Part shown: positions 6,278 through 33,077 of the stretch, one piece after another
Layout: every line of letters begins with the position of its first letter
Position numbering within the stretch: position 1 is the first letter of the stretch
Source of the DNA: Deltaproteobacteria bacterium
GTDB taxonomy: Bacteria > Desulfobacterota > DSM-4660 > Desulfatiglandales > HGW-15
Length of the DNA: 36,413 nt
Direction of reading: 5' to 3'
NCBI GenBank assembly: GCA_016932115.1
Contig: JAFGDM010000106.1
Location: forward strand, 1-36,413
Position numbers and translations under genes: made by a program
The notes under the pieces: generated by a model
What the model was told of the DNA's origin: nothing
What the model saw: the letters and a program-made list of their open reading frames with translations, nothing else
The model's database searches: none

Positions 6278-7867
6278 CTACGGTTCCGAGGAAATGATGA
6301 TGATGTTGTTGTCCTCCCGAGATTCCGGGATCACATTCCCGCAGTCTATTTCCGCTATGATATAAGCGGGGTAATCAGTCCCCAGCAGCTTGTCCTTAAA
6401 CTCGAGCGCTACGGTGACTCCGCCATCCGCCGTTATGTTTTTGGCGATGGAATTGGCAACCATAGTATCCTCTGAATCCAGGACGCAGTCAAAAGAGAGA
6501 TAAAATCTTACGGAAACAGAGTCAACTTTCTGGTTCCCTAAATTATTCACGAGAAACTTACCTTTGATCCAGACACTCTTTCCTTTCAAAAAGCGCGAAA
6601 GGGAAAGCCATTCCCCCGTGAGATCAGTAAAAGTGTCCACCACATCGATGCTGGGTTTTCGGACAGCGACATTGCACTTGTCGCTTGACTTCGAGCCGCT
6701 CTGATCGGTAACGGTCAACTGGAAAATAAGAGGTTCGCCGTCGTAGCTTACCGTCGGCGCCGTGAAACGGGTTTCGATAGCCCCAGGGTTGTCGAGCGCC
6801 GCAGGAGGACCCTCGGCCTGACTCCACTGATAGGATGCAATCCCGCCGTCCGCATCTGAAGAGCCCGAGCCGTCCAATAAAACCGTGTCGCCTTCAGAAG
6901 CTGTCTGATCAGGTCCGGCCTCAGCCAAAGGAGGCTCATTGGTCAGCCCCGGCACGCTTACCACACAAGTATCCGTATCTTGAAGCCCGTAACGGTCGGT
7001 GACCGTCAACGTAAATGTCAACGACTCACCCTCGGGGCCCGGGCTTGACGCCGTGAAAGCAGCCTGCGCAGACCATGGATATGCGAGTTCAACGGGCGTC
7101 CCCTCGGCCTGGGTCCATTCGTAAGATGTAATCACGCCGTCAATGTCATAGGATGCCGAGCCATCCAGGGTAACAATCTCATTCGCATACACCACTTGCT
7201 CATGCCCTGCATCCGCAATGGGAGGGATATTGAGCCAGGTTACATTGACTAGACACTGATCAGAGGCTCGGTTACCGCCCCGATCCGTGACAGTAAGCTG
7301 GAATCCGAGGACTGAGCCGTCGGCGCTCACATCGGGAGCGACAAAAGATGTAGCTACCGCGGAGGGGTTCGCCAAGACGACCACAGGCCCGCTGATTTGC
7401 TGCCACTCATACGTTGCGATTCCGTCGTCCTGGTCGACTGAGTTGAGACCGCTAAGGGTGGCCATACTGCCTTCCTCGACCGTCTGATCAGGCCCTGCAT
7501 CAGCCACGGGCGGCCTGTTGGCGATGGACACGGTCAAGGTTGCAACCTCGTTTGAGTAGCCGCTTTCGCGGCCCTCTGTGTCGTAAGCCGTCACTGTGAA
7601 GTAGTAATTCTCCCGGTCACTCAGTCCGGTTAGAGTGAATGAGGTGGTGTTCCCCACATCAATCGGAGAAGGCCCTTGAAAGGAGTCGGCTCCATCGTAT
7701 GGAGGCCCGCTGGTTCCTGCTTTGTAGTAGAGTTTGTAGCCCGCCAGAGTGGGTTCATTGTTAGGGTCCCAGGTTAAGCTCAAGTCCCCGGCGTTCGCCG
7801 GCCCTGCAATCGCAGTAAGGATGAAAAACAGAATAGCGACGGCGTTTATGCTCCTTTTGATACACAT
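6278..7867 (-). CDS. Secreted Fn3 and triple PKD-repeat protein with CARDB-like C-terminus
   Basis: A 529-residue exported protein. Residues 1-27 are a classical signal peptide (basic start, hydrophobic core, ANA-G cleavage site). A fibronectin type III domain follows (about 28-113). Then come three PKD/Ig-like repeats (about 117-210, 213-304 and 310-403), each opening with a variant of PPVADAGPDQTV and ending FQLTVTDRGG-like. The C-terminal ~120 residues (VDTFTDLTGEW to EIDCGNVIPESREDNN) resemble a CARDB-type beta domain, whose DNN ending is typical. No enzyme domain or anchor is visible, so a role in adhesion or as an extracellular scaffold is inferred. The ATG at 7867 follows GGGAGGGGG; an in-frame GTG at 7882 lies inside that ribosome site and is unlikely. 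A sigma-54-like element lies about 100 bases upstream. Confidence 0.85.
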   Translation of the reverse strand: MCIKRSINAVAILFFILTAIAGPANAGDLSLTWDPNNEPTLAGYKLYYKAGTSGPPYDGADSFQGPSPIDVGNTTSFTLTGLSDRENYYFTVTAYDTEGRESGYSNEVATLTVSIANRPPVADAGPDQTVEEGSMATLSGLNSVDQDDGIATYEWQQISGPVVVLANPSAVATSFVAPDVSADGSVLGFQLTVTDRGGNRASDQCLVNVTWLNIPPIADAGHEQVVYANEIVTLDGSASYDIDGVITSYEWTQAEGTPVELAYPWSAQAAFTASSPGPEGESLTFTLTVTDRYGLQDTDTCVVSVPGLTNEPPLAEAGPDQTASEGDTVLLDGSGSSDADGGIASYQWSQAEGPPAALDNPGAIETRFTAPTVSYDGEPLIFQLTVTDQSGSKSSDKCNVAVRKPSIDVVDTFTDLTGEWLSLSRFLKGKSVWIKGKFLVNNLGNQKVDSVSVRFYLSFDCVLDSEDTMVANSIAKNITADGGVTVALEFKDKLLGTDYPAYIIAEIDCGNVIPESREDNNIIIISSEP

Positions 7868-7969
7868 TGTTCCCCCTCCCACGACGCACTCCCCTGCCCC
7901 CCAACAGGTGCATCGCGGAAAAGAGGCGCGCCGGTTCCTGTGAAAATGCTGTTCTTTTTCCTGGGAATC

Positions 7970-8477: not shown

Positions 8478-10661
8478 TCAGCAGGTCGGAGCCTTGATTT
8501 GTTTGTAGGAAATGTGAAATCTCCTTTGAACGTATTCCATGTACTCATTTCCTGATTGAACGTTCAAAATCCACAACTGGTAATTCTTCTCGCAGGGTAT
8601 ATCCTTGCAATCGACGTAGCTTATGGGGTAGAAGAGAAGGGGTATACGCTCCAGATGGGAATCGCTCGCAAGCTGAGCTACTGCCACGGAAAGAACACTC
8701 CAGGGAAGAGTCTCCCCTCTTGCCACCAGGATCTTTATCCCATTTAAAAGCTCTGAGAGATTAAAGCCAAAATCCGTGCGGTTGGAGACGAGAATCGCGG
8801 ATAAATCCTGTTTATACCGCAAGGAAAAGGCCCTGCATTTTCGAAATAAATTGAGACGTGCATACACTTCTTCAATGGACTCATCATCTTTTTTACCTGG
8901 AACAAGTCCCAAGGCGTCCAAAAGTAGCCCATTCGACTGATCTTTGTAAATGCGTTCGTATTCCCAAAGATCAAGGTCCGAGGCCGGATTCAGGGTCCAT
9001 CCCTCAGGAAGTTTAGGACTGAGAGAGAGGCGCGTATAAGGAAGGTATCCAAAAAGGTCTAATGAGCATCCGCGGGAATCATTGAGCTCTCTTGCAAATC
9101 CGCCGAACACACGGTCGGGGAATTTGTTCTCAGGCCTGAAATAGCACATCGCATAATCCATTTTTGTCGAGGGGAGTCGGTGCATATCGTTAAGATAATG
9201 CATAATGAGTTTCAGAACCATAAACCCCGTTCTTTGATTGCGCATGGCTTTTGCCGCGTGATGATGGACCATCCAGGCTCTTTCGTACGCCCTCACCATT
9301 GAGATATGCCCGTAGATACGGCCGTTTTTCTGATATGTGAAATGCCTGGCCACTTCCGGCCCGTCCTGGTAGAGTCTTTTGTAAGTCTCCTTGAATTTTG
9401 CGCGCTGATGTTGAATCACCCTGTATTTTTTCGGGTAAATGAATCCCGTTTCAAAAAAGAATTCCCATAAAGCATCGACATTGATATCGCTTGATACATT
9501 GGCGCAGGGATCCAAGGCTTTGGCAAGAACATGGGCAAGGCTGCTGTAAGCATGAATGTCCATATTCAGGATGGCCAAGCCGCAACGGTAGCTTCCCTCC
9601 CCGGTTGGTTTTGAATAGATAACCTGAGCGGAGCAATTGATCTTTAATAAACCGGCGAAGTTGATCGTTAGTTCCGGCAAGATGATCCCGGGAGAAAGAA
9701 GGCGCTCTTCAGTTTCTTCACAGACCGAGAACCCGGAGGTTGAAATGTCTGAAATTTCAAGATCCACCTTGTTTCCGAGAAAAGGGTGGGTAAAAAGCAT
9801 TTTCGGTCGGGGATTCAAATCCTGACGAAGATTGCGACATGGTTTCTTCCTGAAACGTCGGATATCGTCATAAAGGGGAGAAAGGACAATGTCTCTTACT
9901 GTGTCACCGCCTTCCTGTCGAATTAATCGGCAGGATTCAGAAAAAAGGAGTTTTTCCTTTCCTTGAAGTTTAATCATGGCGTTCTCTTCAGAGTTCAACC
10001 AGCGGAAGGAACAAGAGGGGTCGGGGGTGACTCTTATTCGAAACCCTGTAGGATTAAATTCCACCATTTCCCCACAGGCATGAAATCCGCTCTGGAAAAG
10101 CTCTGCGGTAACCCCATGGCACATAAATCTTCGTGCTTTGCGTTGGCGGTGGACAAAGCTTTTTTCCGGCAATTCGATAGCAATATGCTTAGGGCTGATC
10201 TCATGCATTACTCCAGGGGCGAGAATGATGGATCGGCCGTCGTCAACGACCAAATAACGAAAGGACAGTATTCTAAGATCCAACGAGGATGATGAGTCAT
10301 CGGCCCACGTGCAGATTAGGCGGCTGCCCATGCACGGCTCAGGAAAAGCCCGGAGCAAAAGCGTTTCTTTGTACTGCGGATGCCCCATCATAATTTGCAC
10401 GAACCGGTCGGTAAAATGGATATGGTTGAGCATATTCGTCAATGCGGATCGATCCAGCTCATCAGCCCCCTCAGAATCCGTCAATATTGAACCATGCCTG
10501 AACAGGGATGGTGCGGCAACATGCCGGGACATTATGGGGTTAATGTCTTCTGAATCCGCAATCTGAGAGACTATCTCTGCGCCTTGACTAAGTTTCATGC
10601 CGAAATTCCTCTTTTCATCAAGGTCTATACTCAAATAGTGTGCCATGTTCCCAAGAAGCAT
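8478..10661 (-). CDS. Large PilZ protein with GNAT-like C-terminal region
   Basis: A 727-residue cytoplasmic protein with no signal or membrane segment. Residues 1-160 are unassigned. A PilZ-like region (about 165-265) has an RxxxR-type stretch (RKARR, 174-178) but a degenerate second motif. A second PilZ region (about 265-385) has an exact DxSxxG (D305, S307, G310), so cyclic di-GMP binding is plausible. The rest (about 400-727) resembles an N-acyltransferase (GNAT) fold, around YGHISMVRAYERAWMVHHHA (450-469) and the helix-strand pattern following; this is judged by pattern only. The start is unclear: ATG 10661 lacks a good ribosome site, ATG 10646 has GGGA, and ATG 10598 (MKLSQGAE) has AGGA at 8 bases. 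A double palindrome lies 126 bases upstream. I infer a c-di-GMP-responsive transferase or regulator; the substrate is unknown. Confidence 0.65.
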   Translation of the reverse strand: MLLGNMAHYLSIDLDEKRNFGMKLSQGAEIVSQIADSEDINPIMSRHVAAPSLFRHGSILTDSEGADELDRSALTNMLNHIHFTDRFVQIMMGHPQYKETLLLRAFPEPCMGSRLICTWADDSSSSLDLRILSFRYLVVDDGRSIILAPGVMHEISPKHIAIELPEKSFVHRQRKARRFMCHGVTAELFQSGFHACGEMVEFNPTGFRIRVTPDPSCSFRWLNSEENAMIKLQGKEKLLFSESCRLIRQEGGDTVRDIVLSPLYDDIRRFRKKPCRNLRQDLNPRPKMLFTHPFLGNKVDLEISDISTSGFSVCEETEERLLSPGIILPELTINFAGLLKINCSAQVIYSKPTGEGSYRCGLAILNMDIHAYSSLAHVLAKALDPCANVSSDINVDALWEFFFETGFIYPKKYRVIQHQRAKFKETYKRLYQDGPEVARHFTYQKNGRIYGHISMVRAYERAWMVHHHAAKAMRNQRTGFMVLKLIMHYLNDMHRLPSTKMDYAMCYFRPENKFPDRVFGGFARELNDSRGCSLDLFGYLPYTRLSLSPKLPEGWTLNPASDLDLWEYERIYKDQSNGLLLDALGLVPGKKDDESIEEVYARLNLFRKCRAFSLRYKQDLSAILVSNRTDFGFNLSELLNGIKILVARGETLPWSVLSVAVAQLASDSHLERIPLLFYPISYVDCKDIPCEKNYQLWILNVQSGNEYMEYVQRRFHISYKQIKAPTC

Positions 10662-11006: not shown

Positions 11007-12149
11007 TTATCTGCCTAGAAGATTATTCGAGATCACCTTTCGTTGGATTTCAGAGGTGCCCTCATAAAGCGTAAAAACCCTGGCGTCACGATAGAACCTT
11101 TCTACAGGAAAGTCCTTCATGTACCCATAACCGCCATGAATTTGCAAAGCCTGATAAGCCACCTGATTCGCCATTTCAGATGCAAACACTTTGGCCATGG
11201 AAGCAGAGGCTGAAAAATTCTCTTCCCTGTCTTTTTTCGCGGCTGCGTTCAAAGTCAAAAGGCGTGCAGCCTCGATTTGGGTAGCCATATCCGCAATCAT
11301 CCAGCGAATGGCTTGAAACTGAGCAATGGGTCTTCCAAACTGAATTCGCTCCTTGGCATAGGCGACTGATGCATCGAGACAAGCCTGGGCCAACCCAACA
11401 GATTGGGAGGCTATGCCTATTCTGCCGCCGTCCAGAGACGTCATAGCAATAATGAATCCGTCCCCCTCTTTGCCCAAAAGGTTTTCTTTCGGCACCCTAC
11501 AGTCCTCGAAAATCAGCTCCACCGTGTCTGAGGCGCGAAGCCCCATTTTGTCTTCCTCTTTGCCGACGTAAAATCCGGGCATCCCCTTCTCCACAACAAA
11601 CGCGCTGATTCCACGATGCTTTTTCTCCCTTGTAGTATACGCTGTTACAACCGTCACATCGCTATTCCTGCCTGTGGTAATAAAAATCTTGTTTCCGTTT
11701 ATGATGTAATCCTCTCCATCCCTGGAGGCTTTCGTTTTTTGACTGGAAGGATCCGAACCGGCTTCCGGTTCGGTGAGGGCAAATGCGCCTATCATTTTCC
11801 CGGCAGCAAGAGGCTTCAGGTAGGTTTCCTTAAGATAGGGAGAACCAAAAAGGTAAATCGGCCCGCAGGCAACCGAGTTGTGAACCGACATGATCACGGC
11901 CGTCGAAGCGCAAGCATAGGCAATTTCCTGAAGGGCCAGGGAATAGCTGACCGTGTCGACCCCTGCGCCGTTGTACTCCTGGGGAACGTTCATCCCCAAA
12001 AGCCCGAGGTCGCCCATTTTTCTGAGGTTTTCCCTTGGAAATTCCATGGTTTTGTCCCTCTCTGAAGCCGTAGGCAGGATCTCCTGTCGCGCAAATTGGC
12101 GGACCATGGCGCGGATCATTTTCTGTTCTTCAGTCAGTTCGAATGCCAC
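11007..12149 (-). CDS. Acyl-CoA dehydrogenase (short-chain/butyryl-CoA dehydrogenase type)
   Basis: A 380-residue flavoprotein that should introduce the alpha-beta double bond in an acyl-CoA and pass electrons to ETF. It has the normal length and signatures: FAD/substrate segment AFALTEPEAGSDPS, ITTG, the RIQFGRPIAQFQ motif, HGGYGYMKDFPVERFYRDAR, and the catalytic glutamate at about 363 in LYEGTSEIQR. Overall closest in character to short-chain or butyryl-CoA dehydrogenases, but chain-length or branch preference cannot be read by eye. AAAGGAA precedes the ATG. It starts 21 bases after the XRE-cupin gene and is the last gene of the long minus-strand acyl-CoA operon. Confidence 0.92.
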   Translation of the reverse strand: MAFELTEEQKMIRAMVRQFARQEILPTASERDKTMEFPRENLRKMGDLGLLGMNVPQEYNGAGVDTVSYSLALQEIAYACASTAVIMSVHNSVACGPIYLFGSPYLKETYLKPLAAGKMIGAFALTEPEAGSDPSSQKTKASRDGEDYIINGNKIFITTGRNSDVTVVTAYTTREKKHRGISAFVVEKGMPGFYVGKEEDKMGLRASDTVELIFEDCRVPKENLLGKEGDGFIIAMTSLDGGRIGIASQSVGLAQACLDASVAYAKERIQFGRPIAQFQAIRWMIADMATQIEAARLLTLNAAAKKDREENFSASASMAKVFASEMANQVAYQALQIHGGYGYMKDFPVERFYRDARVFTLYEGTSEIQRKVISNNLLGR

Positions 12150-12170: not shown

Positions 12171-12719
12171 TTAAGGGGTGTAGAGTACAACGAGTAATTC
12201 CGCTTTTTCTTCGCTGATATTGCGAAGTTTATGGATGATGGAAGAGTTGAAATGAATGCATTCTCCCGGAGAAAGGGTGTTTTTGTTCTCTCCCACCATC
12301 ACATTTATCTTGCCTTTGAGCACATAAATGAATTCTTCCCCCAAGTGTTGGTAGCTCACACCCTTGTGGTCCGACTTAGGATCGATGAACACCTTAAAAG
12401 CCTTCAGTCGCTTGTGCGCAGCCTCCGGCGTAAGCGTCTGATAGCTATAATCCTCCGTTCTTTTCCGGTAGTCCGATTCAGAATCTTTTCCTGCTTTGGC
12501 TTTCTCCTCGCGCAGCAGGATGCTTGAATCGATCTCAAGGGCGCGGGAAAGCTGCAGGATCACCGCAACAGGGGGAATCACTTCTCCCTTTTCAACCTGT
12601 GAGAGATATAGCTCGCTCAGGCCGGTTTCATTGGCAAGAGTCTTGAGGGTCATGTTTTTTTCTCTTCTAAGCCTCATCACCCTTTTTCCAAAAGGCAAAG
12701 CTCCCTTTTTTGCCGGCAT
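12171..12719 (-). CDS. XRE-family regulator with C-terminal cupin domain
   Basis: A 182-residue transcription factor. Residues 11-65 are an XRE/HipB-type helix-turn-helix (LRREKNMTLKTLANETGLS, then LYLSQVEKGE). Residues about 105-180 are a cupin_2 beta-barrel (HLGEEFIYVLKGKINVMVGE, then LSPGECIHFNSSIIHKLRN) that in this family senses a small ligand. It lies inside the acyl-CoA operon, between the small membrane protein gene and an acyl-CoA dehydrogenase gene, so autoregulation of the operon, possibly in response to an acyl-CoA or acid, is inferred. The start has AGGGGGT seven bases upstream. Family membership is secure; ligand and targets are unknown. Confidence 0.9.
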   Translation of the reverse strand: MPAKKGALPFGKRVMRLRREKNMTLKTLANETGLSELYLSQVEKGEVIPPVAVILQLSRALEIDSSILLREEKAKAGKDSESDYRKRTEDYSYQTLTPEAAHKRLKAFKVFIDPKSDHKGVSYQHLGEEFIYVLKGKINVMVGENKNTLSPGECIHFNSSIIHKLRNISEEKAELLVVLYTP

Positions 12720-12991: not shown

Positions 12992-13975
12992 TCAAAGATC
13001 CTTTTGCAATGCGCGAAGCGTCGAAAGAAGCAGTTCATCACAAGCGGTGTAAGGGTCGATTTCACCGTCCATGACGGCATCCACGGCTTTGTTTAACCGG
13101 TCATTTTCCGACATGTGATCGAGTACTTCCTGGATGAGTCGACTTTTGATCATCTCCACCAGGTCTTCACGGATCCGCTCTTTGTTTTTGCGGAGCTTGT
13201 TTCCTTGACTTGCCTTCAGGAGGTAGTCCCTGTGTCTTTCAATTGTTTCAAGAAGTTCCGTCACGCCACGGTCGAAAACCGCTTCCGCCTTAAGGATAGG
13301 GGGTTTCCATTTCCCATCCTCGTATTTTTCGTGACCCATGTCGATCATCTGACGCAGCTCATTAAAGGTTTTATCCGCCCCTTCCCTGTCGGCTTTGTTG
13401 ATCACGAAAAGATCACCCACTTCCAGGATTCCCGCCTTGATCGCCTGAATGTCATCCCCCATTCCCGGGATGACCACGATCACCGTAGTCTGAGCGCTCT
13501 TGACCACATCGACCTCATCCTGTCCGACTCCCACGGTTTCAACGATGATGTAATCCTTTCCCATGGCATCGAGCACATCAATGGCGCTTCGTGTGGACTG
13601 AGAAAGCCCTCCGAAGTGACCACGCGTGGCGAGGGACCGGATAAAGACCCCATCGTCCAGGCTATGTCGCTGCATTCGGATCCGGTCTCCCAGGATGGCG
13701 CCGCCGGTAAAAGGACTTGTCGGATCGACCGCAAGAACACCCACGCTTTTCCCCTGGTGCCGATAGTGATTAACCATCTGATCCACCAGGGTGCTTTTCC
13801 CCACGCCCGGAGCCCCGGTGATGCCGATCACATAGGCCTTACCCGTATGGGCGTAAAGAGCCTTCAAAACATCCCTGACTCCGGGAATCTTGTCGTCAAT
13901 ATCCCGGATCAACCTTGCGACGGTTCTAACATCCCCGGCAATCACCTTCTCCACAGCACTGGACATATGCCTCAA
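12992..13975 (-). CDS. meaB: MeaB/ArgK-type GTPase, mutase chaperone
   Basis: A 327-residue G3E GTPase that in characterised systems gates cobalamin loading and protects B12-dependent acyl-CoA mutases from inactivation. Motifs: Walker A GITGAPGVGKSTL (about 52-64), the Walker B/switch region IIVETVGVGQDEVDV, NKAD as base-recognition motif, and the C-terminal dimerisation helices. The order mutase large subunit, small subunit, meaB makes the partner obvious. The reading frame can start at TTG (13975), overlapping the small subunit stop as TTGA and with AAGGA upstream, or at ATG 13966 (MSSAVEK). The partner mutase has an isobutyryl-CoA mutase-like signature, so this is better viewed as chaperone of that enzyme than of methylmalonyl-CoA mutase. 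Confidence 0.9.
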   Translation of the reverse strand: MRHMSSAVEKVIAGDVRTVARLIRDIDDKIPGVRDVLKALYAHTGKAYVIGITGAPGVGKSTLVDQMVNHYRHQGKSVGVLAVDPTSPFTGGAILGDRIRMQRHSLDDGVFIRSLATRGHFGGLSQSTRSAIDVLDAMGKDYIIVETVGVGQDEVDVVKSAQTTVIVVIPGMGDDIQAIKAGILEVGDLFVINKADREGADKTFNELRQMIDMGHEKYEDGKWKPPILKAEAVFDRGVTELLETIERHRDYLLKASQGNKLRKNKERIREDLVEMIKSRLIQEVLDHMSENDRLNKAVDAVMDGEIDPYTACDELLLSTLRALQKDL

Positions 13976-14379
13976 TCCGTCCTTGTTTTTACATTTGCTT
14001 TGACCCAGCCCACCATATCATCGAGTTTGGAGCCCGGTGTAAAGATTTCAACGATCCCTTGTGCTTTCAGCTTGGGAATGTCGTCATCGGGGATGATTCC
14101 CCCGCCCACAACCACGATATCATCAGCACCGTTTTCCTTGAGCAGTTTTACCACCTCCGGAAACAAATACATATGGGCACCCGCCAGGCTGGACAAACCA
14201 ATCATGTCCACATCCTCTTGAATAGCGGCCTTTACGATGGAATCAGGCGTTTGATGAAGCCCGGTGTAAACCACCTCGAAACCTGCATCCCGAAAGGCTC
14301 TGGCAATGATCCTCGCCCCGCGGTCATGCCCGTCCAATCCCGGCTTTGCGACCATTACCCTGAGTTTTCGATCTCTCAC
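13972..14379 (-). CDS. B12-binding small subunit of acyl-CoA mutase
   Basis: A 135-residue cobalamin-binding domain of the methylmalonyl/isobutyryl-CoA mutase type. The base-off/His-on motif DxHxxG is present as LDGHDRG (residues 15-21), followed by the conserved TGLHQTP, SSLAGAH and VVVGGGIIPDDD segments. It should supply adenosylcobalamin to the large subunit encoded just upstream. The start is a GTG (14379), with a run of G (GGGGGG) about seven bases upstream. It overlaps the meaB start by four bases. The gap to the large subunit gene is 142 bases, long for this operon, and contains a GC-rich hairpin. Confidence 0.9.
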   Translation of the reverse strand: MRDRKLRVMVAKPGLDGHDRGARIIARAFRDAGFEVVYTGLHQTPDSIVKAAIQEDVDMIGLSSLAGAHMYLFPEVVKLLKENGADDIVVVGGGIIPDDDIPKLKAQGIVEIFTPGSKLDDMVGWVKANVKTRTD

Positions 14380-14521: not shown

Positions 14522-16207
14522 TCAATAAATCCCGGGATCCTTATATTCGCCGAACGCTCCACGAAACACATCACAGACTTCCTGCAGTGTGGCGTATGCC
14601 TTGACCGCATCGATGATCGGATTCATAACGTTCTTGCCCGATACACATGCCTCACCGAGTCTTTCAAGGCACTCCCCGGTCTTACCGTTATCCCGCTCCA
14701 TCTTGATCCGAAGGGTCTTTTCAATTTGAATCTTTTCAAGGGCCTCATCGATTTCGAGGATCTCCACGGGAAGCCTTTCTTCAGTTGCGTATTTGTTTAC
14801 GCCTACGACCGTTTTTATAGATTCATCGATTTGCCTTTGATATCTGTACGCGGCATCCGCAATCTCTCGCTGGGGGTAGTTCTTTTCGATAGCCGAAAGC
14901 ATGCCGCCCATTTCATCAATTTTCCTGATGATCGCCAGTGCTTCCTCCTCCATACGGTCGCTCAACGCCTCCACAAAGAAAGCTCCCCCCAAAGGATCGA
15001 TGGTGTTGGCAACCCCTGATTCCTCCGCAATGATCTGCTGGGTCCTCAGTGCGATGGTGGCGGCCTCCTCGGTAGGAAGCCCGAGAACTTCATCAAGGGA
15101 GTTGGTGTGAAGGGACTGAGTCCCCCCTAGGACGGCGGCCAGAGCTTGGAGCGCCGTCCTTACAATGTTGTTGTATGGTTGCTGCGCCGTCAGAGAGCAG
15201 CCTGCCGTCTGGGTGTGAAATCGCAGCCACCAGGACCGAGGATCCTCCGCCTTGAAGCGCTCTTTCATGATCTTGGCCCAAAGGCGTCTGGCGGCACGAA
15301 ACTTCGCGATTTCCTCAAAAAAATCAAGGTGTGAATTAAAGAAAAAGGAAAAACGGGGTGCAAAATCATCCACCTTAAGTCCCCGTTCAATAGCGGCCTG
15401 GCTGTATGCGATACCGTCAGCCAGGGTGAAAGCCAGTTCCTGAACTGCGGTCGAACCTGCTTCCCTGATATGATATCCACTTATGCTGATGGTGTTCCAC
15501 CTGGGAACCTCATGGGTCCCAAACTCCACGGTGTCCGTTATCAGTCGAAGGGACGGTATAGGCGGACACATAAATGTTTTCTGCGCAATGAATTCCTTGA
15601 GCATATCGTTTTGAATGGTTCCGCCGATTTTTCTCCGGTCAATGCCGCGCTTTTCAGCCATGGCGATATACATTCCCCAGATGACCGGCGCCGGCGGATT
15701 GATGGTCATGGAAGTTGTGATGCCATCCACGGGAAGCCCGTCAAACAGATCCTCCATATCCACGATGGTGTCGATCGCTACGCCGCACTTACCGCACTCT
15801 CCCTTGGACCTCGGCGATTCCGTATCATAGCCCATAAGGGTAGGCATATCAAAAGCTGTTGAAAGTCCGGTCTGTCCGGCATTGACGAGAACATGAAACC
15901 GCTGATTGGTATCCTTGGCGGTGCCCAGACCCGCAAACATCCTCATTGTCCAGAGACGGCCCCGGTACATGGAAGGTTGAACTCCCCTTGTAAAGGGATA
16001 CTCGCCGGGGAACCCCATATCTCGCTGAAAATCGTGGTTCTGCAAATCTTCGGGGGTGTAAAGAGGTTTAATTTCCTGGTCGGAGACCGTAGAAAATCTT
16101 TCAAGGCGCTGCGGCGTGATGGAAAATACCTCTTTCAGTGTTCTTTCCCATTTTTCACGCTCTTTCCTGATGTCATCCATGATCTTCCGGCTATAGGTCA
16201 AAGACAT
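14522..16207 (-). CDS. Acyl-CoA mutase large subunit, isobutyryl-CoA mutase-like
   Basis: A 561-residue catalytic (TIM-barrel) subunit of the B12-dependent methylmalonyl-CoA mutase family, separate from its B12 domain as in two-subunit enzymes. The family signature is clear: [18 protein letters not shown] (111-128), [11 protein letters not shown] with the catalytic His at 246, and [27 protein letters not shown]. Two specificity positions differ from methylmalonyl-CoA mutase. The residue matching P. shermanii Tyr89 is Phe91 (RMFAGLG), and that matching Arg207, which binds the malonyl carboxylate, is Gln209 (KEFIAQKTF). Phe/Gln is the isobutyryl-CoA mutase pair as I know it. I chose ATG 16207 (AGAGGA six bases upstream, 14 bases after the previous stop); an in-frame GTG at 16309 would add 34 residues read out of frame inside the upstream gene. 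Confidence 0.88.
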
Positions 16208-16221
16208 AGGATTTCCTCTCA

Positions 16222-17343
16222 TCAAAAGCCCGTCATTCCTGCAAGGCCTATAACATGGTCGGCCACGACAAGACCCGCATCCTCGCTTGTCCCAAAATAA
16301 ACCCGACACATCTTGGCTTCTCTCATGCGCTCTTCCATCAAGGGTCGTCGAGAGGGGTCCTTATCTCCCAGGATCTCCAGGCCCTCACAAGTAAGTCTGA
16401 CAGCAGCTCCTGTCGCAAATACCTTGGCGGATGCAGCCGTTTTCTCATAGCTCTTCCCTTGATCCTTCAGCCATGCGGCCTTAAGAACAAAGAGCTTTGC
16501 AGCCTCCAAATCAACGGCCATATCCGCGAACTTCCATTCCATGGTCTGGGATATTGATCCTCGCCCCTGTTTGTTTCCAAAAAAATTCGTTGTCTCCTCC
16601 ATAGAGCTCGCCCCGATTCCGACCGCTATCGCGGCAACAGCCATCCATGCCTCTTGCAACACGGATTGAACAGCAAAATCCGAGTCGTTCTCCATCCCCA
16701 TTAATTCAGCGGCGTCGACCCGAACATTCTCAAAGGCGGCTTCAGCGATACCCGAGAAAAAGATACCCCCCTTTTCGAAAATTTCTCCTCTCTTCAAGCC
16801 GTCCGTCCGATCCAGATCAATAATGATAAAGACCTTCCTTTTGCTCCCTTCAGAAACAACCGACAAAATACCCCATGAAAACCCGCAAGGGAAAAAAGTT
16901 CCCCTTCCTTTTACCCATCCTTCCCCTCCATCCGAGAACCCGGTTACATGATTCCTCCCGGACAGGGCGCTCCCGATCAGGGCGAAGGAACCGCTTCTCC
17001 GCCCTTTTGAACAGGGAAAAAGATATTTTCTTTTTTGCTCCTCACTGCCATATTTCAGAATGGGAAAGCAAAAGAGCGAGTTGTTCCACGCGAGAAAGCC
17101 GCCCACCGAAGCATTCCCCTGTGAGATTTCCATGAGAGCCAAAACATGGCTGATTTCATCTCTTCCTCCGCCCCCGTAATCTTGGGGTATGGTCATCGCC
17201 ATCATCCCATTTTCGGCTAGGATCTTAATGATTTCAGGAAAAGCCCGATCCGCATTGTTACTCCTTGGAACAATCTCCGTTTGCGTCAAGGTACGAGCTG
17301 ATTCCCTGTAGGCCTCATGCTCTGCTGTAAGTGAAAAATTCAG
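16222..17343 (-). CDS. Degenerate acyl-CoA dehydrogenase paralogue, probable CTG start
   Basis: An acyl-CoA dehydrogenase fold that has lost key residues. The N-terminus ([16 protein letters not shown]) and C-terminal half are recognisable, but the FAD/substrate stretch TEPEAGSD is replaced by IGSALSGRN. The catalytic glutamate of the YEGT motif is Phe ([10 protein letters not shown], about residue 350). A nearby Glu in VLQEAWMAV is one position off the alternative base used by isovaleryl-CoA dehydrogenase. No ATG or GTG fits the N-terminus. A CTG at 17343 sits seven bases after a near-perfect GGGAGGTGA site and gives 373 residues, the normal family length; a TTG at 17289 would drop 18 conserved-looking residues and has no good site. 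The frame is intact, so it is probably a functional non-catalytic or altered subunit, not a pseudogene. Confidence 0.7.
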
Positions 17344-17372
17344 ATCGGACTCACCTCCCCCGGGGACCGAAA

Positions 17373-18524
17373 TTACATCTTTCCGAGCAGCGCGCTCGCA
17401 ATTGTGTTTTTCTGAATTTCCCGTGTGCCCTCATAGATCTCCATGATCTTGGCGTCCCTATAAAAGCGCTCCACTTCGTATTCAAGCATGTAGCCGTATC
17501 CACCATGAAGCTGGATGGCCTCATCGGCCACTTCCACAGCCACACGACCCGCGTACATCTTGGCAATGGAAGTTAGCTTGGGATCAATGACGCCTTGATC
17601 AAAGTTCCATCCCGATTTATGCACGATGAGTCTTGCGGTCTCGATCTTTGCGATCATGTCCGCAAGCTTGTGCTGAGTGACCTGAAACTCGGCGATCTTT
17701 TTCCCGAACTGGCTTCGCTCTTTTACGTAGGCCAGAGCCCGATCAAAAGCACCTTGCGCAATTCCAAGAGCCTGGGCGGCGATCTCGACGCGGCTTTCAT
17801 CAAAGAACTCCAAGACCTGATAAAAGCCTTTGTTTTCCGTGCCCAACAGGTTGGAAAGGGAAACTTTCACATTGTCGAAGGAAAGCTCGCCTGTAGAGGT
17901 CATCTTAATGCCCATCTTTTCCCCTACGTCCGTTTGGGTGTAGCCCGGTTCTCCTTTCTCGACAATGATGGTTGATTGACCCCGGTAGGTGGGCTTAGCG
18001 TCGAGATCCGTCTGGCATAGGACAATGACAAAGTTCCCGATAGTGCCGTTGGTGATAAAGGTCTTCACTCCGTTGATCACATAATGATTCCCATCCCTCA
18101 AGGCATTTGTGTTCATGGATGTTATGTCGCTGCCGTGATCCGGCTCCGTGAATCCCCCGCTGCTCAAGGCTTCACCCTTGGCGATAGGCAAAAGATATTT
18201 CTCTTTCTGCTCCTCAGTCCCGTGTCTGAGAATGATTTCAGAGGAAAAATCGGCAAGAGTGACGGCAATTCCGATGCTCGAATCCTGACGGCAGAATTCT
18301 TCCGTCACCAGGGCATTTTCAAGGACTCCGTAATCTTGACCGCCGTACTTTTCAGGGAAATGAATTCCAACAAAACCCAATTCACAGGCCTTTTTCCATA
18401 TGGATCTCGGGAATGTGTGGGTCCTTTCGTGTTCCAAGGCCGTTTCTTTATCGAACTCACCTTTTGCAAATTCTCTCGCCGCTTTCTGAATGGCTTCCTG
18501 TTCTTTGCTCAATCTAAAATCCAT
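17373..18524 (-). CDS. Acyl-CoA dehydrogenase
   Basis: A 383-residue FAD enzyme with intact chemistry: GGFTEPDHGSDITSM for FAD and substrate, FITNG, RSQFGKKIAEFQ, HGGYGYMLEYEVERFYRDAK, and the catalytic glutamate at about 365 in IYEGTREIQ. It should oxidise an acyl-CoA to the 2-enoyl-CoA with ETF as acceptor. It differs clearly from the other intact dehydrogenase of the operon (11007-12149), so the two probably handle different substrates, for example branched and straight C4. The ATG has AGAGGT six bases upstream. It begins 14 bases after the enoyl-CoA hydratase stop and ends 29 bases before the degenerate paralogue. Confidence 0.92.
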   Translation of the reverse strand: MDFRLSKEQEAIQKAAREFAKGEFDKETALEHERTHTFPRSIWKKACELGFVGIHFPEKYGGQDYGVLENALVTEEFCRQDSSIGIAVTLADFSSEIILRHGTEEQKEKYLLPIAKGEALSSGGFTEPDHGSDITSMNTNALRDGNHYVINGVKTFITNGTIGNFVIVLCQTDLDAKPTYRGQSTIIVEKGEPGYTQTDVGEKMGIKMTSTGELSFDNVKVSLSNLLGTENKGFYQVLEFFDESRVEIAAQALGIAQGAFDRALAYVKERSQFGKKIAEFQVTQHKLADMIAKIETARLIVHKSGWNFDQGVIDPKLTSIAKMYAGRVAVEVADEAIQLHGGYGYMLEYEVERFYRDAKIMEIYEGTREIQKNTIASALLGKM

Positions 18525-18538
18525 AGCACGACCTCTTC

Positions 18539-19327
18539 TTAGATTAACTCGCCTTCTAATTCCGGCTTTCTCTTCTCAAGAAAAGCTCTCATCCCCTCTT
18601 TCCCATCGGGGCTGGCCATGCACAGACCGAAGGCGTCCGCTTCCATCTGACACCCTCTACGAAGATCCGTATCAAACCCGCGGTCGATGCACTGCTTTAC
18701 GGCTCTTACCGATACCCTTCCCTTCGAAGCGATGAGGTTGGCCGTCTTGAGCGTTTCTTCCCAAAGCTTGTCCGGCGGAAAAACCTTGTTAACAAGACCG
18801 ATCGATTTTGCTTCCTGGGCGCTGATTATGACGCCGGTCAAGCAGAGTTCCTTGGCCGCTCCTTTTCCCACCAGTCTTGACAACCTCTGGGTACCGCCGA
18901 ATCCGGGAATGATGCCGAGGTTGATTTCGGGTTGGCCGAACCTGGCATTCTCGGAAGCGTAAATAAAATCGCAAGCCATCGCCATTTCCGTTCCACCGCC
19001 GAGGGCAAACCCGTTGACTGAGGCAATGACCGGGATGGGAAGGTTTTCGAGGCGAAACCCTAAATCATGGCCTTCGACGGAAAACCGTCGTGCCTCAAGA
19101 GGAGAAAGATTCACCATGTGAGCGATGTCCGCACCGGCAATAAAGGCTTTCTCACCCTCGCCCGTCAATATCAGCACCCTGAGTGAGCCGTCCTTTTCTA
19201 TTTCATCCAGCGCGTCGCCCATCTCGGCCACAACATCGGGGTTGATGGCATTCAACGCCTTGGGCCTGTTGAATTTGATGATCGCCACACTACCCTGCTT
19301 TTCAAAAATGATGGTTTGGTAGCTCAT
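18539..19327 (-). CDS. Enoyl-CoA hydratase (crotonase family)
   Basis: A 262-residue crotonase-fold enzyme that adds water to 2-enoyl-CoA. The oxyanion-hole motif AFIAGADIAHM and both glutamates that activate water are present: GGGTEMAMACD and FGQPEINLGIIPGFGGTQRL. These match short-chain enoyl-CoA hydratases and argue against a non-hydratase member of the superfamily. ATG 19327 is preceded by GGAG six bases away. The frame stays open 68 codons further upstream but those residues are not crotonase-like and overlap the thiolase gene. It lies 17 bases after the thiolase stop and is part of the acyl-CoA operon. Confidence 0.93.
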   Translation of the reverse strand: MSYQTIIFEKQGSVAIIKFNRPKALNAINPDVVAEMGDALDEIEKDGSLRVLILTGEGEKAFIAGADIAHMVNLSPLEARRFSVEGHDLGFRLENLPIPVIASVNGFALGGGTEMAMACDFIYASENARFGQPEINLGIIPGFGGTQRLSRLVGKGAAKELCLTGVIISAQEAKSIGLVNKVFPPDKLWEETLKTANLIASKGRVSVRAVKQCIDRGFDTDLRRGCQMEADAFGLCMASPDGKEGMRAFLEKRKPELEGELI

Positions 19328-19344: not shown

Positions 19345-20628
19345 TTAAGCTTTTTCCAACACCATGGCCATCCCTTGACCGCCGCCGATGCAAAGAGTCG
19401 CCAAGCCGAGGCCATGGTCCTTCCGGACCATTTCGTTCATGAGAGTCACAAGGATGCGGGCTCCCGTGCATCCGATGGGGTGACCGATGGAAATACCGCT
19501 TCCAAGGAGATTGGTCTTTCCCATATCGCACTTGAGTTCCCTAATGCAGGCAATGGCTTGGGAGGCAAAAGCCTCATTGATTTCAATTGTTCCGAAATCC
19601 GCGACGGCGAGCTTCTCTCGCTCAAGGATCTTTTTCACCGCCGGGATCGGTCCCAGCCCCATATAAGCCGGATCAACCGCGCCGGCGGCATAGGCCCTTA
19701 TTTTCACTATTGGTTTGAGCCCCAAATCCTTGGCCTTCTTGTCGGACATAAGAAGCAGCGCCGCGGCGGCATCATTGATTCCCGATGCATTACCCGCGGT
19801 AACCGTACCGTTCTTTTTGAAGGCCGGAGGAATCTTGGCCATTTTTTCCACACTCGTCTCCATAGGCCTTTCGTCAGTGTCAAACACTAGGGGCTCACCC
19901 TTTTTTTGCGGGATCACCACAGGAATGATCTCATTTTTGAAAAGACCGTCGGCAATGGCCTTTTTCGCCCTTTTGTGGCTCAAGGCCCCCAGTTCATCCT
20001 GTTCCTTTCGTGAGATTCCATACGTTTCAGCGATATTCTCGGCTGTAATCCCCATATGGTAGCCGTAAAAAATTTCGAACAAACCATCAAAAACCATGAG
20101 GTCCACAAAATCTACATTATTCATTCTGGCGCCCCATCGAGCCGCTTGAAGGGCGTAAGGAACGAGGCTCATGTTTTCCATACCTCCTGCCAGCACCACC
20201 TCAGCTTCTCCTGCCCGAATGGATTGGGCCGCAAGAGCAACGGCCTTCATGCCGGAAGCGCAGACCTTATTTATAGTGAAAGCATTGGTCTCTTTACTGA
20301 TACCCGCCCTGATCGCAGCCTGCCTGCCCACATTCTGACCCTGCCCGGCACCGACGACATTGCCCATAATTACCTCGTCCACCTGCAGAGACTGAAGTGA
20401 CTCGGCATAATCATAGGCTTCTTTTTCAAGATCGATCATGCCGGTTTGCTTGAAAGGCTCCGGAGCAAAACGACTCATTTCAGGGGGTACAACCGGTCTG
20501 AAACCTGCCCTTTTCAGCGTCTCTTTTAAGACAAGAGCTCCCAATTGAACCACCGGGGTACCCTTCAAGCTTCCACCAAAAGCTCCAACCGGTGTCCTTG
20601 CACCGGAAACAATAACCACATCCGCCAT
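19345..20628 (-). CDS. Acetyl-CoA acetyltransferase (thiolase) with an internal insertion
   Basis: A thiolase of 427 residues that should cleave acetoacetyl-CoA (or a longer 3-ketoacyl-CoA) with CoA to acetyl-CoA. The nucleophilic cysteine is Cys123 in NKVCASGMKAV; NEAFASQAIA, the histidine of GHPIGCTGARI and the second cysteine in CIGGGQGMAMV are all present. It is about 35 residues longer than usual (about 392), because of an extra segment at about 43-80 (PVVPPEMSRFAPEPFKQTG onward) just before VDEVIMGNV. ATG 20628 has GAAGGGA/GGAG upstream. It is the first gene of the acyl-CoA operon, with a good promoter about 67 bases upstream. Confidence 0.93.
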   Translation of the reverse strand: MADVVIVSGARTPVGAFGGSLKGTPVVQLGALVLKETLKRAGFRPVVPPEMSRFAPEPFKQTGMIDLEKEAYDYAESLQSLQVDEVIMGNVVGAGQGQNVGRQAAIRAGISKETNAFTINKVCASGMKAVALAAQSIRAGEAEVVLAGGMENMSLVPYALQAARWGARMNNVDFVDLMVFDGLFEIFYGYHMGITAENIAETYGISRKEQDELGALSHKRAKKAIADGLFKNEIIPVVIPQKKGEPLVFDTDERPMETSVEKMAKIPPAFKKNGTVTAGNASGINDAAAALLLMSDKKAKDLGLKPIVKIRAYAAGAVDPAYMGLGPIPAVKKILEREKLAVADFGTIEINEAFASQAIACIRELKCDMGKTNLLGSGISIGHPIGCTGARILVTLMNEMVRKDHGLGLATLCIGGGQGMAMVLEKA

Positions 20629-30291: not shown

Positions 30292-30304
30292 AATTGTCAC
30301 AATT
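30292..30304. promoter_or_regulatory. 13-bp palindrome upstream of the nucleotidyltransferase fusion gene
   Basis: AATTGT (30292-30297) and ACAATT (30299-30304) are perfect inverted repeats around one base, just upstream of the promoter-like pair at 30310-30338. Possible operator. Confidence 0.4.
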
Positions 30305-30309
30305 GAAGT

Positions 30310-30338
30310 TATACAGGGCTTTTCCGATATGGTATCAT
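30310..30338 (+). promoter_or_regulatory. Promoter-like pair placing the transcript start at the ATG
   Basis: TATACA (30310-30315), 17 bases, TATCAT (30333-30338; one mismatch to TATAAT). Seven bases further is the ATG at 30345, so the transcript would be leaderless or nearly so. No Shine-Dalgarno precedes the ATG, which fits. Confidence 0.4.
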
Positions 30339-30344
30339 CTTTTT

Positions 30345-33077
30345 ATGGAAAACAAAGACATTGAAAATCAAGAAGGGCTCGGCTCGCCCGAAAGGCAGCA
30401 TGAAGAAGTCATCACGACCCATATGAATGCAGACTTCGACGCCCTTGCCTCTATGATTGCGGCTCGAAAGCTTTACCCGAACGCAACCCTGGCGTTTCCC
30501 GGTTCTCAGGAGCGAAACCTCCGGAACTTCTTTCTCCATTCAACCAGTTACCTCTTCAACTTCACCAAGATCAAGCACCTTGACTTCGATCGGATCAAGC
30601 GCCTCATTCTCGTGGATACGCGCCAAAAAAGTCGCATAGGCCGTTTTGCCGACCTCGCACAAAGACCTGATGTAGATATCCACATCTACGACCACCACCA
30701 CGACTCGCATGACGATATCCACGGTCGAATCGAGATCGTCAGGGAAGTGGGGGCAACCACGACGATCCTTACACACTTCATCAAGGATCGGGGAATCCGA
30801 CTCTCATCCGATGAGGCAACGATCATGAGCCTCGGCATTCATGAGGACACCGGTTCCTTCACCTTTTCCTCCACTACGCCGGAAGATTATCGAGCTGCCG
30901 CCTGGCTTGCCGAACAGGGCGCAAACGCCAACCTCATTTCGGACATGCTCACCAGGGAGTTGACCGCCGAGCAAGTGTGGCTCTTAAGCGATCTTACCAA
31001 GTCGGCCACATCACAGGTTATCAACGGGATTGATGTGGTCATCTGCAAGGTAACCCGAGATGAGTATATCGGCGACTTTGCCGTCCTGGTGCACAAATTC
31101 ATGGAAATGGAAAATTTGAGCGTTATCATCGCTCTCGCCCAGATGGAGGACAAGATCTATCTCGTTGCCAGAAGCCGGGTTGAAGAGGTAAATGCCGCCG
31201 AAATCGCCCTCGCTTTCGGGGGAGGAGGACACCCGCAAGCCGCCTCCGCCACCATTAAGAAAAAAACCTTGATTCAGGTGGAAAAAAGCCTTCAGGCCCT
31301 CCTTAGAAACCGCGTCATTCCTCAAAAAAGAGCCCGTGACATGATGACTTCTCCTGTGATTCACATTTCTCCCGATGGGACGATCCAGGAAGCAGCCACC
31401 CTGATGACCAAGTTTAACATCAACGTCCTGCTGGTTACGGACGATCAGGCAAATCTCGTGGGATATATTACTCGGCAGGTGGTGGAGAAGGCGGTCTATT
31501 TCGGCCTTGGAAACATCAGAATTGAGGAATATACCAATATTGAGTTCCCCACCGTGGGCGCGGATGCCTCCCTCAAGGAAGTTCAGGATCGCATCATTGA
31601 GGATAAGGTGCGCATCCTTCCTGTTACGGAAAACGGCAAGATGGTGGGGGTCATCACTAGGACCGACCTCTTAAACATCCTCGTGGGTGGGCCGGTGCTG
31701 CCCGATTTTCTGTACGAATCTCGCCATGCCTCTCATTTTGAACACAAAAAGAACATAGCCGCCATGCTTAAAGAGCGTCTCCCCCGGAGGGTAATCACGC
31801 TTCTCAAAGATTTTGGATACGTGGCCGACATGATGGGATACCAGGCTTTTCTCGTGGGCGGCCTCTTAAGGGATATCCTCCTGAAGCGGGAAAACCTCGA
31901 TGTGGACATCGTAATCGAAGGGGACGGAATCAAGTTCGCCCAGGAGTTCGCGGCCGATCACGGGGTCAGGCTCAGAAGCCATAAAAAATTCGGCACCGTG
32001 GTCATGATCTTTCCGGATGGATTCAAAGTGGATGTGGCTACCGCCCGTATTGAGTACTATAACTCGCCCGCTGCTCCTCCCAGTGTCGAGGTAAGTTCCT
32101 TGAAAATGGATCTCTACAGGCGAGATTTCACCATCAACACCCTTGCCGTCAAACTTAACAAGCGGGACTATGGCACCTTGATGGATTACTTCGGCGCTCA
32201 GAAGGATATTCGGGAAAAGGTTATCCGAGTGCTCCATAACCTGAGTTTTGTGGAGGATCCTACACGCGTGCTGAGGGCCATACGATTTGAGCAGAGATTC
32301 GGTTTCAAGATCGGAAAGCTAACACTTTCCCTCATGAAAAACGCTGTGGCCATCAATTGTTTCAAGGGGCTTTCCGGAAGGCGTCTCTTACTCGAGTTGA
32401 AGCTTCTTCTGATGGAACCGGAACCCATAAAAACCGTGGAAAGAATGGAAGAGTTTAATCTGCTCCAGGTCCTGTCCCCGGCAATCCTACTCACGCCTGA
32501 ATTGAAGAACCTTCTGGAAGACATCCGTGGAGTTTTGTTTTGGTTTGACCTCCTCTATCTGGATGAATCATACGATCTATGGAAGGTGTACTTCCTGGGT
32601 CTCACATCGCACATGGATGCAAAGTCTCTTCAAGCTATGGTTCAAAGATTACAGATGAGCGACGTAAAAGATCGTAAAATGATCAGACAAAGGCTCGAAA
32701 TAGGGGCCGTGCTGGATCAGCTTTACAAGTTTCAGGAGCAGAGCAATTACGCCCTCTACAAATTGCTCTCCCAGTATGATACAGAGATCCTGCTCTACAT
32801 GATGGCCAGGGCCAACAATAGAACCATTAAGCGCCTTGTCTCCCAGTACTTTACCAAACTCAAAGGCATCCGGTGTCTTCTTAAAGGCAAGGACCTGAAA
32901 GCCATGGGCTTTCCTCCGGGTCCCCTGTTCAGGGAAATCTTGGATGCTCTTCTAGAGGCGAGGATTAACAATGAGGTAGGCACCAGGGAAGATGAGATCG
33001 CCTTTGTCAAAAAGCAATACGGCAAATCACGCGAGAGTGAAACAGAGGAAACGTTAGAGCCATGGACTATGAAGTAA
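30345..33077 (+). CDS. DHH phosphoesterase - CBS pair - tRNA nucleotidyltransferase/poly(A) polymerase fusion
   Basis: A 910-residue three-part protein. Residues 20-310 are a DHH/DHHA1 phosphoesterase: NADFDALAS, DTRQ, the DHH triad at 116-118, GIHEDTGSF and FGGGGHPQAA. Residues about 320-440 are a CBS pair (ARDMMTSPVIHISPDGT onward), usually an adenosine-nucleotide sensor. From about 490 on is a class II nucleotidyltransferase of the CCA-adding/poly(A) polymerase family with GGLLRD (about 504-509), the metal-binding DVD (about 518-520) and RRDFTINTLA. This architecture is known in several bacteria, where it adds A or CCA to tRNA 3' ends or polyadenylates RNA; which one cannot be told here. 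ATG 30345 is chosen; a TTG at 30294 is possible but neither has a ribosome site. It overlaps scpA by 16 bases. Confidence 0.88.
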   Translation: MENKDIENQEGLGSPERQHEEVITTHMNADFDALASMIAARKLYPNATLAFPGSQERNLRNFFLHSTSYLFNFTKIKHLDFDRIKRLILVDTRQKSRIGRFADLAQRPDVDIHIYDHHHDSHDDIHGRIEIVREVGATTTILTHFIKDRGIRLSSDEATIMSLGIHEDTGSFTFSSTTPEDYRAAAWLAEQGANANLISDMLTRELTAEQVWLLSDLTKSATSQVINGIDVVICKVTRDEYIGDFAVLVHKFMEMENLSVIIALAQMEDKIYLVARSRVEEVNAAEIALAFGGGGHPQAASATIKKKTLIQVEKSLQALLRNRVIPQKRARDMMTSPVIHISPDGTIQEAATLMTKFNINVLLVTDDQANLVGYITRQVVEKAVYFGLGNIRIEEYTNIEFPTVGADASLKEVQDRIIEDKVRILPVTENGKMVGVITRTDLLNILVGGPVLPDFLYESRHASHFEHKKNIAAMLKERLPRRVITLLKDFGYVADMMGYQAFLVGGLLRDILLKRENLDVDIVIEGDGIKFAQEFAADHGVRLRSHKKFGTVVMIFPDGFKVDVATARIEYYNSPAAPPSVEVSSLKMDLYRRDFTINTLAVKLNKRDYGTLMDYFGAQKDIREKVIRVLHNLSFVEDPTRVLRAIRFEQRFGFKIGKLTLSLMKNAVAINCFKGLSGRRLLLELKLLLMEPEPIKTVERMEEFNLLQVLSPAILLTPELKNLLEDIRGVLFWFDLLYLDESYDLWKVYFLGLTSHMDAKSLQAMVQRLQMSDVKDRKMIRQRLEIGAVLDQLYKFQEQSNYALYKLLSQYDTEILLYMMARANNRTIKRLVSQYFTKLKGIRCLLKGKDLKAMGFPPGPLFREILDALLEARINNEVGTREDEIAFVKKQYGKSRESETEETLEPWTMK

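Follow-up and report, generated by a model that had tools for sequence, protein, structure and literature searches.

A Glu-less acyl-CoA dehydrogenase (ACAD) paralogue beside an active ACAD is an already known kind of arrangement. The steroid ACADs ChsE4-ChsE5, ChsE1-ChsE2, IpdE1-IpdE2 and CasC are heterotetramers encoded by adjacent genes, or in CasC by fused domains, and one of the two partners lacks the catalytic Glu (PMC8399759, PMC11153573). In the ChsE type the heteromer is essential, and its Glu-less subunit makes contacts with the ADP-ribose moiety of FAD (PMC8399759, PMC11153573). In long-chain acyl-CoA dehydrogenase (LCAD) and isovaleryl-CoA dehydrogenase (IVD), the catalytic base is a Glu on helix G (PMC11153573). 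The ACAD fold also serves as a flavin-free assembly scaffold, in human ACAD9 of the complex I assembly complex (PMC10716376). Here we describe P0001, an ACAD-like gene that stands next to an intact dehydrogenase in a bacterial operon.

The window, by which we mean the whole stretch of 36,413 nucleotides analysed, carries this operon on its minus strand in the following order:

19345..20628, minus strand: thiolase
18539..19327, minus strand: enoyl-CoA hydratase (crotonase)
17373..18524, minus strand: intact ACAD resembling butyryl-CoA dehydrogenase (bcd-like), the putative incoming dehydrogenase (bcd); all motifs present, 78-87% identical across the family
16222..17343, minus strand: P0001, an ACAD pseudoenzyme of 373 codons without catalytic Glu or FAD motifs (from translation, Pfam, alignment, AlphaFold and tree)
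14522..16207, minus strand: acyl-CoA mutase large subunit, active-site F/A/Q
13972..14379, minus strand: cobalamin-binding small subunit of the mutase
12992..13975, minus strand: MeaB-type mutase-associated GTPase
12171..12719, minus strand: HTH-cupin regulator, conserved in the operon
11007..12149, minus strand: second intact ACAD of the operon

Among solved structures, the mutase large subunit aligned best with 2-hydroxyisobutyryl-CoA mutase. The alignment places Phe, Ala and Gln where methylmalonyl-CoA mutase has Tyr, Ala and Arg and 2-hydroxyisobutyryl-CoA mutase has Ile, Asp and Gln. We take these residues to be the signature of isobutyryl-CoA mutase, which suggests that the window's mutase is one; this gene would probably be misannotated if labelled methylmalonyl-CoA mutase. 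Given such a mutase, we infer that the substrate is isobutyrate, which the operon would probably oxidise via butyryl-CoA. This route has been described in syntrophs and related sulfate reducers (PMC5017805).

Three other minus- or plus-strand genes of the window deserve mention in their own right. A 727-residue protein (8478-10661, minus strand), whose sole match is a sub-threshold one to PilZ, also lies near the operon in G004, another genome of the window's family (53% identical). The gene at 6278-7882 (minus strand) has PKD, fibronectin III and CARDB domains and probably encodes a secreted surface protein. On the plus strand, a 927-residue frame (30294-33077) fuses DHH/DHHA1, CBS and poly(A) polymerase/tRNA nucleotidyltransferase domains.

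P0001 lies between the complete bcd and the mutase and reads through 373 codons to a TGA with no internal stop. Calling of open reading frames limited to ATG, GTG and TTG puts its start at a TTG at 17289. We prefer a CTG at 17343, because homologue alignments begin there and a ribosome-binding motif lies 7 nt upstream, and this CTG is the probable true start:

17351..17358, minus strand: Shine-Dalgarno-like GGAGGTGA, from the sequence
17341..17343, minus strand: probable CTG start codon of P0001, in frame with the homologues' ATG

Pfam matched the N- and C-terminal ACAD domains of P0001 and, in both intact ACADs of the window, the middle (flavin) domain as well; it found no middle-domain match in P0001, where this region is nevertheless modelled as a beta domain.

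To place P0001 among its relatives, we compared the corresponding loci across the order. Just one ACAD, of canonical type, stands between hydratase and mutase in a sister family and in other members of the order, and the flanking genes are the same; in sister families these are thiolase, crotonase, mutase, small subunit, MeaB, regulator and second ACAD. P0001 matches this canonical slot ACAD best (38-42% identical) and the adjacent bcd at just 27%. A maximum-likelihood tree groups P0001 with its three orthologues, from other genomes of the window's family (G015, G007 and G004), as a single clade (98/94) lying among the canonical ACADs of this slot. As judged by identity and phylogeny, these results show that P0001 descends from the operon's original slot ACAD. 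Its grouping with the slot's own ACADs, together with the 27% identity, ruled out a recent duplicate of bcd. The sister of the clade is a Glu-to-Ala copy from G005 (95/79), although the branches are long and the exact placement is less sure. The G005 locus has neither bcd nor mutase. The ACAD there (L027:2584-3726) reads YAGT, has otherwise largely intact flavin motifs and belongs to an operon that has lost its mutase subunits; it is possibly an FAD-binding but base-less protein and a separate case.

Twenty-two genomes of the order have bcd in the operon, and in four of them the extra gene stands between bcd and mutase. In the other 18 (six of the window's family, eleven of another and one of a third), bcd abuts the mutase across a gap of 9 to 380 bases, and tblastn found no pseudoenzyme remnants in these gaps. 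A class-level search, which drew on the same set of 85 genomes as the search at order level, found no further members. The simplest story is that bcd entered beside the resident ACAD and replaced its function, after which the resident was usually lost. The mutase and bcd trees give weak support to movement of bcd between lineages. In one sister-family genome (G043, L169), bcd occupies the slot instead of the ancestral ACAD, which suggests repeated in-place replacement of one ACAD by another.

We next compared the residues of P0001 with those of a canonical reference of 36 aligned ACADs, taking as conserved those positions shared by at least 92% of them. The changes that bear most on catalysis are:

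16951..16980, minus strand: lost TEPxAGSD flavin/substrate signature, four residues deleted (alignment)
16645..16647, minus strand: Trp233 codon, Arg in all 36 canonical ACADs and Trp in all four pseudoenzyme orthologues (alignment)
16294..16296, minus strand: Phe350 codon at the catalytic-Glu position, YEGT to YFGT (translation, alignment)

The catalytic Glu of the J-K loop is kept by every canonical ACAD (36/36), so that its loss exceeds chance variation. The four orthologues have Phe, Met, Met (beyond a frameshift) and Gln at this position; once the Ala of G005 is counted, it varies among F, M, Q and A, as expected for an unconstrained site. The helix-G Arg-to-Trp change is, by contrast with the 36 canonical enzymes, a derived state common to all four copies, which also lack the FITN Thr, most R-x-QF-G contacts and most of QxxGGYG. 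The FAD-binding motifs of P0001 (TEPxAGSD, FITN, R-x-QFG and QxxGGYG) are thus lost or altered, with Thr352 of YEGT as the main survivor. Retention of ancestral consensus residues is highest in core helices H and I (56-91%), which form the tetramer core of ACADs, and lowest in the FAD-binding R-x-QFG loop (8-25%); the least retained large part is the beta domain.

P0001 could still be an active flavoenzyme, either with a displaced base in the manner of IVD and LCAD or with base-free ACAD chemistry. Like P0001, those two precedents have no Glu at the YEGT position, and Glu231 is present in three of the four copies. The alternative base stands one residue before the helix-G Arg. In contrast to LCAD and IVD, P0001 has Ala232-Trp233 here, and no Glu stands at this site in any of the four orthologues (A/S/S/N) or, with G005, in the five Glu-less proteins (A/S/S/N/V). 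Glu231 itself is two residues from Trp233 and missing in G004, and the flavin contacts T-E-P-x-A-G-S-D, FITN Thr, R-x-QF-G and QxxGGYG are lost or altered, so that we find an active enzyme scarcely credible. The first-pass annotation had proposed a displaced base among other roles, and the residues at the known alternative site and the loss of FAD motifs in four orthologues speak against it. Its description of the gene stands: an ACAD paralogue without the catalytic glutamate (Phe350 in YFGT), with an altered TEPxAGSD-type signature, 373 open codons and a place between a normal dehydrogenase and the mutase.

AlphaFold modelled P0001 with a full ACAD fold (pLDDT 82.5, pTM 0.87). Confidence was mostly 95 or more in the C-terminal helical core and 52-81 in the flavin-facing beta domain. 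Because the input alignment is rich in canonical ACADs and the model leans on these rows, it shows fold compatibility rather than proof. The nearest solved structures are short-chain ACADs, and the match to human short-chain acyl-CoA dehydrogenase (SCAD) 8sgs covers the full-length fold (VIA Z 48.6, rmsd 2.2 A over 367 residues). Taken together, Pfam, AlphaFold and structure comparison give P0001 the three-domain ACAD fold. A retained fold within an acyl-CoA pathway operon would suit a sensor or regulator that binds acyl-CoA and reports CoA ester levels to the pathway. However, P0001 has lost the conserved helix-G Arg and those motifs of the middle domain that lie close to the ligand site, its beta domain is retained least among the large parts and modelled with the lowest confidence, and the operon already has a separate HTH regulator; we consider a sensor very improbable.

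To determine whether P0001 is under selection, we estimated dN/dS in a sister genus, since the genome collection includes no congener of the window's genome, and left out pairwise values between genera, where dS is saturated. In this single congeneric pair, G015 and G007, the pseudoenzyme has a dS of 0.82 and a dN/dS of 0.26 (2dlnL 67 against dN/dS = 1), with similar values in the N-terminal (0.26), middle (0.24) and C-terminal (0.26) domains. The neighbouring bcd, mutase and hydratase of the same pair have dS of 0.85-1.05 and dN/dS of 0.03-0.07. Neutral simulation to 40% identity gave a mean of 9.7 stops, and none of 150 runs ended with zero stops; the three full-length copies have no internal stop at 60-70% protein divergence. 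A frameshift of two bases interrupts the G007 copy some 65 codons from its end. Since the new frame is open and conserved to the end, the event is either recent or an assembly error. An ordinary pseudogene would show a broken frame and a dN/dS near 1, whereas three of four copies here are open and the congeneric pair has a dN/dS of 0.26. Given that value and the roughly ten stops expected under neutrality, P0001 is no ordinary enzyme and no free-running pseudogene either. On sequence evidence, with selection measured in one sister-genus pair, it is a pseudoenzyme on which purifying selection, though relaxed, still acts. Separately, dN/dS, full-length homology and presence in four genomes ruled out sequencing error or a spurious ORF.

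These results bear on two further explanations. Under the first, the open frame alone would matter: an untranslated kilobase before the mutase could cause Rho-dependent polarity or break translational coupling. The frame has stayed open while the active site drifts, and the pseudoenzyme ends about 14 nt short of the mutase ATG, its stop codon sharing bases with an earlier in-frame ATG of the mutase (TGATG). Yet selection on the frame alone predicts a dN/dS near 1 without stops, not 0.26, and many genomes have solved the problem by deleting the gene; we regard a translational relay as improbable. The second and main rival is a lingering relic, a displaced dehydrogenase on its way out that bears the imprint of past constraint and is not needed today in the window's lineage. 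The gene has gone without trace from 18 of the 22 bcd-mutase junctions, its dN/dS is four to nine times that of its neighbours, its GC3 is slightly lower than theirs, four different residues occupy the base position, and the G007 copy is frameshifted. All four copies also have non-ATG starts (CTG, CTG, TTG and GTG; window, L028, L026 and L031), whereas the canonical slot genes that were checked start with ATG, which hints at lower expression; the Shine-Dalgarno sequence of the window's CTG-started copy is strong. Against a relic stand the dN/dS of 0.26 in every domain at unsaturated dS, the absence of stops despite the divergence, Trp233 in all four copies and the conserved frame beyond the G007 frameshift. 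We hold a relic to be a tentative possibility.

The reading that we favour, with moderate confidence, is that P0001 is a displaced original dehydrogenase selected as a flavin-free, chemistry-free contact subunit. The slot between crotonase and mutase first held the operon's original ACAD, from which P0001 descends. A different ACAD, bcd, now precedes it and has presumably assumed its chemistry. P0001 has lost catalytic base, helix-G Arg and flavin motifs while keeping its fold, and helices H and I best of all. It would bind no flavin and carry out no dehydrogenation. It would act by protein contact, and most probably as an apo-subunit with the ACAD fold that assembles with itself or with bcd via helices H and I. 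The pattern of conserved parts suggests such a contact role. Several observations weigh against any structural role, namely the dispensability of the gene in the 18 genomes, the unconstrained-looking base site, the non-ATG starts and the one late frameshift. In addition, bcd has almost no substitutions specific to pseudoenzyme-bearing genomes, with one weak case, Arg to Lys at 220. We think it rather unlikely that a foreign bcd entered and that the resident, having shed flavin and catalysis, stayed on purely as a scaffold or assembly subunit free of flavin, serving bcd or a pathway complex, which would be a new ACAD partnership.

Of the roles put forward in the first-pass annotation, a structural partner is plausible and the one that we prefer. 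Its claim that selection has kept the gene is supported by the dN/dS in the congeneric pair and the three unbroken copies. It had named frameshifted or absent orthologues as evidence to the contrary, and these were found in part, as one late frameshift and absence from 18 of 22 genomes, beside open frames and a dN/dS of 0.26.

One operon here displays a chain of states, from intact resident to arrival of a replacement, to a dead but selected copy, to loss, and makes it testable whether displaced enzymes pass through a stage as structural pseudoenzymes. If an apo-subunit does assemble with the active dehydrogenase, this would be an additional heteromeric type of ACAD, whose partner chain contributes no base and no contacts to the flavin. 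P0001 and bcd resemble the ChsE and IpdE type, here at the level of genes, in being an adjacent ACAD pair with one member lacking Glu. They differ from it in that P0001 has lost the residues that contact the ADP-ribose of FAD (R258 to K, F261 to R, Q323 to E, G327 to D), bcd has the full motif set and relatives do not require the pair. The NCBIfam IpdE2 model, the sole beta-subunit model compared, matched the two intact ACADs of the window and not P0001. ACAD9 offers a possible working likeness as a flavin-free scaffold, but its active site is preserved and its FAD is lost only when it binds ECSIT, and its relation to P0001 is at most that of superfamily. Because P0001 lacks the contacts of the ChsE type and shares only the superfamily with ACAD9, we file it under neither. 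It also resembles SCAD and Bcd: unlike them it lacks catalytic Glu, helix-G Arg and flavin motifs, but it appears to have the same fold over its full length, and it descends from such an enzyme in the same operon slot.
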